From IMG/VR virus record IMGVR_UViG_3300025137_000011, positions 1 through 30,790 of that record: a DNA stretch of 30,790 bases. One strand, 5' to 3'. The notes below the pieces were generated by a model. The model saw only the letters and a list, made by a program, of their open reading frames with translations, ran no database searches and was not told the DNA's origin. Source of the DNA: a virus. The position numbers and the translations under genes were made by a program. Within the stretch, counting starts at the first letter, position 1. The number at the start of each line of letters is the position of its first letter. This document shows positions 13,661 through 23,695 of the stretch, one piece after another.

Positions 13661-13684
13661 TGGTAATTAAGGAGACCAAACAAA

Positions 13685-14047
13685 ATGGAAGAGCAAGAAG
13701 ATAGCAGGACATACATACCAGAGCTAGGCGGCAATAGAGACCTAGACGAATCCGAGCAGGTATCGTGCGAAGTTTTACCGATGACAGGCGAAGAGCTTAG
13801 AGCGTACCAGCGAACAATGGTAGGCGTTAAACCTGGAAGCTCTCAAGCGCTCAAGAAGGCTGAGGCTGTTATCAAGCGCATCATCTCAGAGCGAGTTGTT
13901 AGTATTGAAAACTACGCTGACATCAAAGGCGCCAGCATCACGAACGGTGAAGAGCTTTTCTTGAGAGGTGAGCCGCCGATGGTAGACGAGGTCTACGCGG
14001 CGCTTTCTGATATCTCAAAGCTTAGAGAGGGCCAGCGAAAAAACTAA
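13685..14047 (+). CDS. Tail assembly chaperone, short form (lambda gpG-like role)
   Basis: A 120-residue protein between tail tube and tape measure, the invariant place of tail assembly chaperones. It is mainly helical and charged (MTGEELRAYQRTMVGV, then AEAVIKRIISERVVSIENYADI). AAGGAG at 13670-13675 precedes ATG 13685. The last codons are CGA AAA AAC TAA and contain a frameshift heptamer. Ribosomes that do not slip make this short form. The chaperone coats the tape measure protein while the tail tube forms; this is known for the lambda system and inferred here. Confidence 0.82.
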   Translation: MEEQEDSRTYIPELGGNRDLDESEQVSCEVLPMTGEELRAYQRTMVGVKPGSSQALKKAEAVIKRIISERVVSIENYADIKGASITNGEELFLRGEPPMVDEVYAALSDISKLREGQRKN

Positions 14048-14451
14048 TCACCGCCGCTAGGTTTATCCTAAGCGGCGATAAGGCGCTGAGCTGGGGATGC
14101 AGCCAGTGCAGAGGCGAAGGCTTTGAGGACGGCGACCATCTGAGGGCGTCGAGGGGCTGCGAGGGAAAGGACGTTGAAAGCTTAGGTTTTAGCTTTGATG
14201 CATCGCTTAGGCAGTGCCCTTGGGCATCGATAGACCAGGAAGCTTGGGAGCTTCTGAGATGGTGGAACGAGTGGAAAGCTTTTCAGGTGTTGCCTTGGGG
14301 TGGCGCCGATTTGATGAAGCAGCCCGCTATTGTCCTCGAAGTTTTAGAGATATGTGAGACCGAGAAAAAACAGGCTGAAAAGCGACAGGCAGAAAAACAG
14401 CAGGCAGAAGCCAAGCGGATGAGAAAGAGCGCAAACAATGGCAGAAGGTAG
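13685..14451 (+). CDS. Tail assembly chaperone, long form made by -1 frameshift (GT-like)
   Basis: After a -1 slip at 14038-14044 the ribosome reads on from 14044 to TAG 14449-14451, giving about 255 residues: 120 from the first frame and 135 from the second. The extension has no ATG before its residue 91, so it cannot be made independently in full. It carries a Cys cluster (CSQC, then Cys at extension residues 39 and 58), a Trp-rich stretch (LLRWWNEWKAFQVLPWGG) and a charged coiled-coil end (EKKQAEKRQAEKQQAEAK). In lambda the equivalent GT protein bridges the tape measure to tail tube subunits. The frame end overlaps the tape measure start (14438) by 14 bases. A zinc-binding role for the cysteines is a guess. 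Confidence 0.88.
14022..14077 (+). promoter_or_regulatory. Programmed -1 frameshift signal: SD-like run, A AAA AAC, stem-loop
   Basis: The heptamer A AAA AAC (14038-14044) is exactly in phase, with AAA in the P site and AAC in the A site. Upstream, GAGAGGG (14025-14031) is an SD-like stimulator about 10 bases before the A-site codon. Downstream, after 7 bases, CGCCGCT (14052-14058) pairs with AGCGGCG (14071-14077), extended by AGG/CCT past one bulged A, with loop TTTAT. This is the same three-part design as the E. coli dnaX signal. Confidence 0.9.
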
Positions 14452-20550: not shown

Positions 20551-22400
20551 TGCCAAAAATTGTACAATTTAATTTGCCACCCGGTGGAACCGTCGTACAG
20601 GTTGCAGACAATACAAGCGAAGCTTTGGATATCGAATCGGCTGGACCCGATGCGAAAGATTACATCACTCTTGATACAACCGATGGCAGCGAAAATATAG
20701 GGCTAGGAGCACGCACGGTCATAACGGCCACGACATCCCACACGCCAGACAACCTTGCTGATTTTGATAACTATGCACTTGTTCTTGAGGGAAGCTCGAA
20801 CTCTAACGATGAGACCGGTTTCTTGCTTGCTAGTTCCGGCACCGGCAACGGCGGGAGCGCAATCGTTCACAAAGATACCGGAGGCTATGGCAAGGGCGAA
20901 CTTAATTTTTACACGAAACAGTCAGAAGGAGCAGGTGCGCCGCTATTAGCTTTCCGCATTGGTGACGATGGGGTCGCTCAAGCGATTCAGGATATGACAA
21001 CAGCTGTAACCGGCACATTCACAGCAACGCAGGGCAGCGACGTTATAAACGCGGGAAGCTCGACAGCTTTTACAACGGAGCTGCACGTAGGTTCAGCAAT
21101 TAAAATTCCCTCAGACGTTGCGGCTGGTTTTGAAATATTCACCGTTGACGGAATCACAAGCGACACGATTCTTTCGCTTGATTCAAATTATCTGGGCTCA
21201 ACCAGGGCTACCTCAGGCGGCGCTTTCACAGACGGCGGCGAACTCTTCGCGGTTAAAACTGGTGATAGTAAATCGCTCTTTAGCGTGAATGAAACCGGCG
21301 CAATCGGTTGCGGTAGTGCAGCAGGTACAGCTCACGCATCAAATAATATTGCAATCGGTGACGATGATGCGCTTGATGCAATCACAACAGGTGTAAGCAA
21401 CGTAATCGTGGGCGGTTCCAATGCTACGCATCAGCTCACAACAGGCAGCCGCAATGTAATCGCGGGTTATCGGGCGGGTGAGGATTGCACTAGCACCAGC
21501 GACTCGGTAATTATAGGCGAGATTGCTGGCGCTGTTGGCAATATGGGGAGTCAGCAAGTTCTTATCGGAAGGGGTGCGGGCACGTCTTCAACTGATATCA
21601 ACAACGTAGCAGTGGGTTATCAGGCTATGTACGATTGCAGCGGACGCAATAATGTTGCAATTGGTCACTCAGCACTTAAGGCCACCGGTTCACAAGATTC
21701 TTGCGTTGCGCTTGGGATGCAGGCGCTTGTTGCCGCGACTGGAGGCAAAAATATCGGAATCGGTCAAGATGCAGGCGATACCATTGTCGGCGGTTTTGGC
21801 AATATTTGCATCGGCCACCAAGCCGATACCGGTGCAGCTCAAGAGTACTCAATTGCTATAGGTCACCAAGTGGCTGCATCGGTAAACCAGAAAGCTTACA
21901 TCGGTGATGGCTCAAGTGCGACGTCAATTGTTTTTAGTGGTGGCGGTAATAGTTGGTCAACGGCGTCTGACAACAGAATTAAAGAAAATGTCGAAAACAA
22001 TACCTTGGGCTTAGATTTTATTAATGCGCTCAGGCCGGTGAAGTACACTGAAATAAATCCGCAGGACTGGCCAGAAGAAATTAGGCCGCACATCTTTTTT
22101 GATAAAACCGAAACGCGAATCAATGAAGAAACAGGCGAAGAAGAAACCTACACAATCCCAGCGCGTGAGCGCGACCCTACTTGTACCGATGTTTTTGACG
22201 GCTTGATTGCTCAAGAAGTTAAGGCGGCAGCAGATGCAGCTGGAACAACGTTTTCAGGATTTGAAGACAGCGAGCCTAATGGTCTTGTTCGTTTGCAATA
22301 TGAGAAATTTGTAGTGCCCTTGATTGCAGCCGTGAAAGAGCTTTCGTCTCAAAATGAGAGCCTAGCAGCCAGAATTGCCACGTTAGAGGCAGGTGGCTGA
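20550..22400 (+). CDS. Tail fibre with YadA-like head repeats and S74 chaperone domain
   Basis: A 616-residue fibre. Residues 1 to about 250 form the attachment and shaft region. Residues about 260-455 are 14-residue-type left-handed roll repeats as in YadA/haemagglutinin heads (motifs such as NNVAIGHSAL, NVIAGYRAG, QVLIGRGAG, NIGIGQDAG). From about 472 comes the peptidase S74 intramolecular chaperone (SDNRIKENV, then LDFINALRPVKY, DGLIAQEV and a terminal coiled coil). S74 domains drive trimer folding and then cut themselves off at the Ser-Asp site. This is a trimeric receptor-binding fibre. It is separated from the hub gene by a terminator, so its dosage may be set independently. Confidence 0.9.
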   Translation: MPKIVQFNLPPGGTVVQVADNTSEALDIESAGPDAKDYITLDTTDGSENIGLGARTVITATTSHTPDNLADFDNYALVLEGSSNSNDETGFLLASSGTGNGGSAIVHKDTGGYGKGELNFYTKQSEGAGAPLLAFRIGDDGVAQAIQDMTTAVTGTFTATQGSDVINAGSSTAFTTELHVGSAIKIPSDVAAGFEIFTVDGITSDTILSLDSNYLGSTRATSGGAFTDGGELFAVKTGDSKSLFSVNETGAIGCGSAAGTAHASNNIAIGDDDALDAITTGVSNVIVGGSNATHQLTTGSRNVIAGYRAGEDCTSTSDSVIIGEIAGAVGNMGSQQVLIGRGAGTSSTDINNVAVGYQAMYDCSGRNNVAIGHSALKATGSQDSCVALGMQALVAATGGKNIGIGQDAGDTIVGGFGNICIGHQADTGAAQEYSIAIGHQVAASVNQKAYIGDGSSATSIVFSGGGNSWSTASDNRIKENVENNTLGLDFINALRPVKYTEINPQDWPEEIRPHIFFDKTETRINEETGEEETYTIPARERDPTCTDVFDGLIAQEVKAAADAAGTTFSGFEDSEPNGLVRLQYEKFVVPLIAAVKELSSQNESLAARIATLEAGG

Positions 22401-22401
22401 C

Positions 22402-22809
22402 ATGGAAGGCGGTGCAATGGTTGAGGCGGGCGCGATGTTTGCTGCACTCTTGGCGGCATTGCGTGTAATTGAAAAGCTTGTTGATAAAAAAATGGGCAAC
22501 GGTCAGAGGCCGGTGCAGGTCGACTTGCATCAAACAGAGATTGCTAATCAAGTGGGCCAGATGACCGAATGTCTAGCCGCAACAGGTCAAACGCTTGAGC
22601 GTATCAATGACAAGATTGACAACATGGACCTGCGCCAAGCGGCAATGGCGTCGCTGGTTGGTACGGTCGAGGGCCGCGTAAAGGATGTTCAGGACACGGG
22701 GCACAAGACGTTTAACATCGTAGAAGCAGGGCGACAGAAGGCCGAGAAGGCTGAGCTACTGCGAGAAATTGCAGCATCGCAAACAGGCAACCAGTCAACA
22801 ACAACTTAG
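22402..22809 (+). CDS. Coiled-coil protein with N-terminal hydrophobic helix (lysis-region)
   Basis: A 135-residue protein. The N-terminus has a short hydrophobic helix (AGAMFAALLAALRVIEKLV), followed by a heptad-like region (LERINDKIDNMDLRQAAMASL, then GRVKDVQDTGHKTF) and a polar tail. The layout resembles XhlA-type or other membrane-associated accessory proteins of lysis cassettes, but a fibre-associated role is equally possible. The start is either ATG 22402, one base after the fibre stop, or GTG 22393. It lies directly before the holin-like gene. Confidence 0.6.
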   Translation: MEGGAMVEAGAMFAALLAALRVIEKLVDKKMGNGQRPVQVDLHQTEIANQVGQMTECLAATGQTLERINDKIDNMDLRQAAMASLVGTVEGRVKDVQDTGHKTFNIVEAGRQKAEKAELLREIAASQTGNQSTTT

Positions 22810-22818
22810 GGGTAGAAC

Positions 22819-23064
22819 ATGAAGCCAGGGATTAAAACGAGTGAGATGATAGTCACCTTGATCGGCGTGGTCGGCGGAATCTTAATGGGCTCCGGTGTCC
22901 TTGGAGATGGCCAATGGACAACCATCGTGGGCGGTTTGCTCGCTGCAATTTGCGGCGGCAGTTATACAATGGGCCGCAGCATGGTCAAAGGCAAAGAAGC
23001 TATCGGAGCCGCCCAAGTTCAGGCGGCGCGTGAGCTTGCAAAAAAGCAGAGCCCCGAGAGCTAA
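22819..23064 (+). CDS. Holin-like small membrane protein, short form
   Basis: An 81-residue protein with two membrane segments, about residues 9-28 (MIVTLIGVVGGILMGSGVLG) and 33-52 (WTTIVGGLLAAICGGSYTMG), and a short charged C-terminus. Size, two segments and position before a peptidase fit a class II holin, which would open the inner membrane for the endolysin. AGGGGTA precedes the ATG. Codons GCA AAA AAG near the end form a -1 slippery heptamer that can extend the protein. Confidence 0.7.
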   Translation: MKPGIKTSEMIVTLIGVVGGILMGSGVLGDGQWTTIVGGLLAAICGGSYTMGRSMVKGKEAIGAAQVQAARELAKKQSPES

Positions 23065-23276
23065 TTAATGCGGCACTCGCTGGGGCAAATGCGGCTTCCA
23101 AGATGGCGGCAGGTTCGGGACTGTTTACGGTTGGCGCTGGCATTGCTGGCGATATCGGGAAGCTTGACGCTTCTCTTAGCACTCGAATCAATGAAAGCGT
23201 GTCTCTATTTGCCAGTGGTAGCGTGGACACGTCTAAGCGGTGGCAGGCGATGACCGGGCTTAAGGTTGAATGGTAA
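22819..23276 (+). CDS. Extended holin-like protein made by -1 frameshift (candidate)
   Basis: If ribosomes slip at 23040-23046, the product is 152 residues: 76 from the holin-like frame and 76 from the -1 frame. The extension (AEPRELINAALAGANAASK, a Gly-rich turn, then LDASLSTRINESVSLFASG and a final AMTGLKVEW) looks like real coding sequence, with alternating strand residues near the end. Its only ATG is at 23103; a 57-residue protein from there is the alternative, but no Shine-Dalgarno stands at a usual distance. Its TAA (23274-23276) overlaps the endolysin ATG (23276), as expected for a translated frame. A membrane protein with a C-terminal strand-rich domain could be a regulated holin or a holin-spanin type protein; this is speculation. 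Confidence 0.6.
23040..23086 (+). promoter_or_regulatory. Second candidate -1 frameshift signal: A AAA AAG plus GC stem
   Basis: A AAA AAG (23040-23046) is in phase in the holin-like gene and is the same heptamer used by dnaX. Four bases downstream, GCCC (23051-23054) pairs with GGGC (23083-23086), and CGAG (23055-23058) with CTCG (23076-23079) across a 3-base bulge. No good SD-like stimulator is seen upstream. The -1 frame is open from 23034 to 23276. Confidence 0.65.
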
Positions 23277-23695
23277 TGGCGCAAATCGGTAAATACTTTA
23301 CAAGCGAAGAGTTTGCTTGCCCGTGTTGCGGAAAGACATCGCCGAGCACCCGGCTCGTGTCTATCTTAGACACGGCCCGCATCCAGCTTGGCCCGCTTCG
23401 CGTAAATAGTTCTTATCGCTGCGTATCTCATAATGCCCATGTAGGTGGCGCCGTCAATTCGCTGCACTTGCCTCAAAACGATGGCCGCGTGTTGGCTGCT
23501 GATATCACTTACGTTGACGCGACTAAGCGCCACGGTGAGCATATTTTAAAGCTTTACATAACGCTCGAGAACATAGCGCGCAGGTTTGGCAGCGCGTACG
23601 GGCTGGGCTTGTATTCGACCTTTACCCATATTGACACCAGGGGCGAAGCAGGGCGAGACATGGCCCGGTGGGACAAGTACCCATGGCCGCGCTAG
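23276..23695 (+). CDS. M15-family peptidase endolysin
   Basis: A 139-residue L-alanyl-D-glutamate or D,D-type peptidase of the M15_3/YcbK group. Landmarks are the N-terminal zinc-like CPCCGK (residues 15-20), SSYRCVSHNAHVGG (45-58), His64 in NSLH, Asp77 in AADI, and HID (118-120); His64, Asp77 and His118 are the expected zinc ligands. It cuts peptidoglycan cross-links to release virions. I choose ATG 23276, which overlaps the upstream TAA and has AAGG about ten bases before it; ATG 23270 is an alternative. It has no signal peptide, so it needs a holin. It is the last gene of the late operon. Confidence 0.85.
   Translation: MAQIGKYFTSEEFACPCCGKTSPSTRLVSILDTARIQLGPLRVNSSYRCVSHNAHVGGAVNSLHLPQNDGRVLAADITYVDATKRHGEHILKLYITLENIARRFGSAYGLGLYSTFTHIDTRGEAGRDMARWDKYPWPR

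Follow-up and report, generated by a model that had tools for sequence, protein, structure and literature searches.

Programmed frameshifting in double-stranded DNA phages is known mainly from tail-chaperone genes and from some structural genes. Both dnaX (tau/gamma) and the tail-chaperone pair gpG/gpGT use the slippery heptamers A AAA AAG or G GGA AAG together with a stimulator, either a Shine-Dalgarno-like sequence upstream or a stem downstream, and gpG/gpGT yields a minority product that is extended at its C-terminus. Two forms of a holin are made in a fixed ratio from one gene in lambda (S105/S107), where a second start adds two N-terminal residues. The spanins (Rz/Rz1, with their overlapping reading frames, and the unimolecular T1 gp11; PMC6139136) are encoded in lysis-gene neighbourhoods and link the inner and outer membranes, while trimeric autotransporters (Hia, AtaA and YadA; PF03895) and the YadA-like adhesins of phages (phiEco32 phi32_119) share an anchor of one helix and four strands that closes with a beta-signal ending in an aromatic residue. 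The nearest historical link between frameshifting and lysis that we found in the open-access literature is that of MS2, whose lysis expression, according to passages of two papers (PMC5009743; PMC10885494), was once ascribed to frameshifting in the coat gene; for frameshifting in a holin gene or for a beta-anchored spanin, no earlier report was found in that literature.

The locus described here lies in a 30,790-base IMG/VR virus record, analysed over its whole length (the window). It has the same heptamers and the same kinds of stimulator as dnaX and gpG/gpGT, and a minority product with a C-terminal extension is proposed, as for gpG/gpGT; unlike in those systems, the slip site falls in a holin-like lysis gene, the extension resembles an outer-membrane anchor and a third gene overlaps it. 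As we interpret it, one gene would give two holin forms in a fixed ratio, as in lambda, but the difference between them would be a C-terminal domain gained by frameshifting. With the spanins the locus has in common its lysis-gene neighbourhood and, as in Rz/Rz1, overlapping reading frames, and the fusion would likewise link both membranes; in contrast to them, the holin, the extension and the overlapping gene contain no lipobox, attachment would be through a predicted beta-anchor, and the protein would be a frameshift product of the holin gene. Lacking a lipobox, the fusion falls outside the described spanin classes but may act in a similar way. It differs from the trimeric autotransporters in having no passenger, no Sec signal peptide and no Pfam match, and in being joined to a holin-like protein, and the phage YadA-anchor genes that we examined (phiEco32, TG1, Privateer and PhiR5_1) do not stand beside lysis genes.

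Slip site, stimulators and relatives

The holin-like gene (22819 to 23064, plus strand, frame 0) encodes a membrane protein of 81 aa with two hydrophobic segments, one of which is predicted as a clear transmembrane segment while the second is weaker and below threshold. It matched Pfam Phage_holin_10 (Pam3 gp28) with an E value of 4e-4 and 20.7 bits, under the 27-bit gathering cut-off and hence short of the score for membership in this class II-like family. A single ATG serves as start of the holin frame in the window, rather than two starts a few codons apart, and a second form would differ at the C-terminus. The heptamer A AAA AAG at 23040 to 23046 is in phase with this frame (codons GCA AAA AAG CAG), and the -1 frame is open between a TGA at 23031 and a TAA at 23274-23276. 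The extension (23040 to 23276, plus strand) comprises 78 codons from the heptamer, or 76 residues beyond the shared Lys-Lys, and the predicted fusion, which has the first 74 codons in common with the holin, would be 152 aa long. Its TAA overlaps the ATG (23276) of the adjoining M15 endolysin frame, which has a second in-frame ATG at 23270 (endolysin, 23270 to 23695, plus strand; Peptidase_M15_3, E 1.6e-11; phrog_894 endolysin, E 1.3e-25). The heptamer, the open -1 frame and the TAA/ATG overlap all stand where the initial annotation had placed them, and the GC stem that it described is present, beginning 4-5 bases past the heptamer.

Scanning the whole plus strand of the window for an in-phase X XXY YYZ near the end of an open reading frame and followed by a long -1 extension yielded three cases, namely the holin slip site, a tail-assembly-chaperone slip site at 14038 and one within a spurious frame. 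The second belongs to a -1 frameshift of the tail-assembly-chaperone type (13667-14451; A AAA AAC in phase at 14038), whose extension of 134 codons ends where the tape measure gene starts; within this genome it is an internal positive control for frameshifting.

The candidate stimulator in the window is a stem-loop 3' of the slip site (23051 to 23086, plus strand), in which GCCCC (23051-23055) pairs with GGGGC (23082-23086) and the upper stem is variable. Taken as a single sequence the stem is unremarkable (z +0.91 for the 81-nt fold; 165/200 shuffles equally stable). The lower stem is conserved in the window's family (nine sequences) and has three compensated pairs, found in L017, a result obtained with 8/500 shuffles. 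Stem-loops beginning about 5 nt 3' of the heptamer occur at most other A AAA AAG loci, and the long stem of a second family (group 2; about -24 kcal/mol, 89.5% paired) shows no covariation beyond that of shuffles. GGAGG stands exactly 13 nt 5' of the heptamer at 17 of the 24 loci with G GGA AAG and at 9 of the 30 with A AAA AAG, compared with a Shine-Dalgarno-like 5-mer upstream of 5% of the other codons in the same open reading frames; this GGAGG also encodes conserved residues and may serve both purposes. Which stimulatory element is present depends on the family, either the GGAGG 13 nt upstream or a conserved stem, and the window has the stem only.

Homology searches queried with the holin, with the extension and with alignments of each gave about 55 distinct sequences. 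All untruncated relatives encode the extension in the -1 frame, preceded by a canonical heptamer that is in phase; it is A AAA AAG in 30, G GGA AAG in 24, and G GGA AAC and C CCA AAG in one each, and the A run is longer at two loci (L040 and L041). Even close relatives exchange the heptamer in register, since L120-L122 read ...VGK (G GGA AAG) where L125-L135 read ...KKSPE (A AAA AAG), the holin and extension being otherwise very similar. None of the approximately 55 relatives has the extension fused to the holin in one frame. The search for homologues proposed in the initial annotation has thus found them, always in the -1 frame, and the random stops there that it named as a warning sign are absent. 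Because the heptamer is exchanged among relatives and the arrangement is always kept, both a sequencing or assembly error in the A run, the other doubt it had raised, and a chance arrangement are excluded, the different heptamers standing in independent contigs. The comparison of relatives strongly supports the programmed -1 frameshift that had been suggested for the holin-like gene, and we regard it as almost certain; that ribosomes do slip here we infer from the same comparison.

Tblastn with the holin and extension against reference phages gave no match, and alignments of both found no relative among GTDB genomes. The nearest terminases are at most 52% identical and are headed by those of phages of Gram-negative bacteria. 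Two further observations concern exchange around the slip site. L010 and L014 have holin N-terminal parts very different from those of the window and L002, while the last 20 or so holin codons, the slip site and the extension are nearly identical in all four, a pattern that, from the alignments, is one of module swapping immediately upstream of the slip site. The holin-like protein of L105 is unrelated (phrog_9987 holin, E 0.017); its locus has a divergent extension behind G GGA AAC and lacks the frame-0 gene described below, and the combination of frameshift and anchor-like domain seems from this locus to extend past one holin family.

The extension and an overlapping frame-0 gene

Modelled by AlphaFold from 23 sequences, the extension (pLDDT 85.8) is a helix (residues 5-20) followed by four antiparallel strands. 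Its five best Foldseek matches in the PDB are all membrane anchors of trimeric autotransporters (Hia, AtaA and YadA; probability 1.00, E 2e-3 to 6e-2), and its best viral structure matches are YadA-like anchor proteins; VIA-align gave Z 6.3, little above unrelated rows. The helix and four-strand meander matching solved anchors was found in families A and B, while for family C the elements are predicted in the same order, but its model is of low confidence (pLDDT 68) and has best PDB matches that are not anchors. At the sequence level, the extension aligns with the last 80 residues of phrog_17426 (E 2e-4), the region that also covers the PF03895 anchor of phiEco32 phi32_119, and hhalign against phage YadA anchors gave a collinear but weak alignment (P 0.0027, probability 11%). 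A Pfam search of the extension returned no YadA_anchor (PF03895) match, and a sequence search of the PDB no useful one.

The strongest sequence mark of the extension is its C-terminal motif. The window extension ends in W..A..GLKVEW, and among the last 12 residues W at -11, G at -6 and W or F at -1 are present in 55/55 sequences, with hydrophobic residues at -3 and -5 and K or R at -4 and mostly at -2. A terminal pattern of this kind is typical of the beta-signals of outer-membrane proteins. From the models, the extension very likely adopts a YadA/Hia-like outer-membrane anchor fold; we call it anchor-like and do not assign it to the YadA anchor family, the PF03895 match being absent. Where it is the only coding frame, changes in family C fall at codon positions 1:2:3 in the ratio 28:11:78. 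This pattern, with the invariant W, G and terminal aromatic residue, bears out the initial impression that the extension reads like genuine protein, since it is under conservation at the protein level.

A further gene, f0b (23068 to 23253, plus strand), lies in frame 0 within the extension and encodes 61 aa with a basic N-terminus and one predicted transmembrane segment. Its ATG is one codon past the holin stop. The counterparts in relatives are 36-64 aa long, have one hydrophobic segment and an ATG or GTG start, and usually begin one codon beyond the stop of the holin, and a good Shine-Dalgarno often precedes them, often taking in bases of the slip site; the start is kept in all but one of about 55 relatives, the exception being L105. 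Changes were counted by codon position in the extension and the holin, by parsimony on trees, with p values that are approximate. In the overlapped part of the extension the third-position share of changes is 0.39 for family A, 0.43 for B and 0.29 for C; the holins of these genomes give 0.59, 0.61 and 0.73 in that order (p 7e-6, 7e-9 and 3e-15). The share is 0.67 in the non-overlapped part in family C (p 2e-8); in family A the changes at extension codon positions 1:2:3 of the overlap are 78:43:76. A share so reduced relative to the holin indicates that both frames are under selection, and f0b is with high probability a real third gene. The reading of the locus in the initial annotation was right as to the -1 extension and had overlooked the overlapping frame-0 gene. 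A mutation simulation of frame-0 identity was dropped, control genes giving an equal mean z of about 2 that did not discriminate. Against Pfam and PHROG f0b had no significant match; it may be a second holin or an antiholin, which is a guess.

Upstream of the holin, a gene at 22393 to 22809 (plus strand) encodes an N-terminal hydrophobic segment and a coiled coil; it has the same place in the relatives inspected and is possibly a further lysis protein. Downstream, several relatives have something other than an endolysin next to the extension. In several, a small basic protein (MPxKKDxRLKRAGVSGYNKPKRTP...NKVKW) directly follows the extension in the endolysin's place (L051, 1741-2007; L056, 3110-3376; L028, 1175-1441).

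Possible roles of the fusion protein

The explanation that we favour, with some reserve, is that frameshifting makes a minority holin-anchor fusion which links the holin to the outer membrane, in the manner of a spanin without a lipoprotein. Most ribosomes would terminate at the holin stop and yield the 81-aa two-span membrane protein, while a minority would slip on A AAA AAG and produce the 152-aa fusion with its 76 C-terminal residues forming the predicted YadA/Hia-like beta-anchor; terminating ribosomes could re-initiate one codon further on and make the single-span f0b. A fixed minority of holin subunits could thereby engage the outer membrane. The fusion would most likely act late in lysis, with the holin and the M15 endolysin, and connect the disruption of the inner and outer membranes. 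No o-spanin-type ORF with a lipobox was found near the lysis genes of the window, which is in keeping with a spanin substitute. A spanin-like role at the outer membrane has, in our judgement, about even chances of being correct, and the fusion may trimerise and insert into the outer membrane, in a topology that is likewise putative. The phage YadA-anchor genes examined, none of them beside lysis genes, and the relatives with another gene in the endolysin's place speak against it, as do the weak hhalign alignment, the lack of a Pfam anchor match and the poor family C model. Topology is the main difficulty of the mechanism: by the positive-inside rule, a holin with two transmembrane segments has its C-terminus in the cytoplasm, which counts against the anchor reaching the outer membrane. 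Either the weak second segment does not span the membrane, giving an N-in/C-out protein, or the holin is N-in/C-in and the domain would stay cytoplasmic until it is exposed once the inner membrane opens at triggering.

This same topology lends weight to a different proposal, in which the fusion regulates the holin as an antiholin-like or timing subunit; the frameshift would set the ratio of short to long holin, and the beta domain would alter only oligomerisation in the inner membrane or the cytoplasm. A predicted C-in protein keeps its domain cytoplasmic, the whole holin-like N-terminus is common to both products and frameshifting yields a fixed ratio; yet a cytoplasmic regulator has no need of an outer-membrane-type C-terminal signal that is invariant in 55 sequences, and the predicted anchor fold would be superfluous to it. 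We hold such a regulator to be rather unlikely. The initial annotation had thought of a fixed ratio of two holin forms of the lambda type, which finds no direct support in an extension predicted to be a beta-sheet, anchor-like domain with this kind of beta-signal; signal and fold together make an outer-membrane role the likelier of the two. Improbable, to our mind, is that the frameshift serves chiefly to control translation, shifted ribosomes stopping at TAATG and re-initiating on the endolysin or bypassing f0b, with the peptide incidental. The overlap of TAA and endolysin ATG and the position of f0b, whose Shine-Dalgarno often shares slip-site bases, would suit it, but the extension is conserved as a protein and, as described above, is followed by something other than an endolysin in several relatives.

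That the extension might be a separate gene, translated from its own start with no frameshift, had also been raised. An ATG does stand in the extension frame of the window, at 23103, and some ATG is present within extension codons 3-32 at 22/56 loci; an ATG or GTG with a Shine-Dalgarno of at least 4 nt, however, was found at only 11/56, at varying positions, 7/56 extensions have no start codon at all, and no conserved start with a Shine-Dalgarno was found across the 56 loci. An in-phase heptamer that is both kept and exchanged would moreover be unexpected if it had no role in frameshifting. As the -1 arrangement is present in all untruncated loci and no start is conserved, independent initiation is excluded as their common basis, and the separate gene is a largely refuted and very improbable reading. 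Least probable of all, and refuted by the data, is a chance opening of the -1 frame, with f0b as the only real gene of the two. Changes at extension position 1 are indeed as many as at position 3 in the family A overlap, but past the end of the frame-0 gene the coding pattern is normal, the W, G and terminal aromatic residue are invariant, and L105 retains the extension without f0b.

Returning to the holin-anchor fusion, we put forward, tentatively and at slightly less than even probability, a new class of lysis factor, in which a frameshift-made holin fusion would insert a YadA-type trimeric beta-anchor and tie the rupture of the outer membrane to holin triggering with no lipoprotein spanin involved, accompanied by a third, overlapping membrane protein, all within about 460 bases. 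Here a frameshift is conserved in a lysis gene, and the exchange of heptamers among relatives is, for a purely comparative argument, close to proving its function. Judging by the appended domain, phages may couple the holin to the outer membrane through an anchor of the beta-barrel type in place of a lipoprotein; to our knowledge this route is absent from the described spanin classes. So short a stretch would encode three membrane proteins, of which two overlap each other in different frames, and the fusion would escape standard gene callers. If true, this arrangement would point to an undescribed coupling of inner- and outer-membrane rupture in the lysis brought about by uncultured phages.
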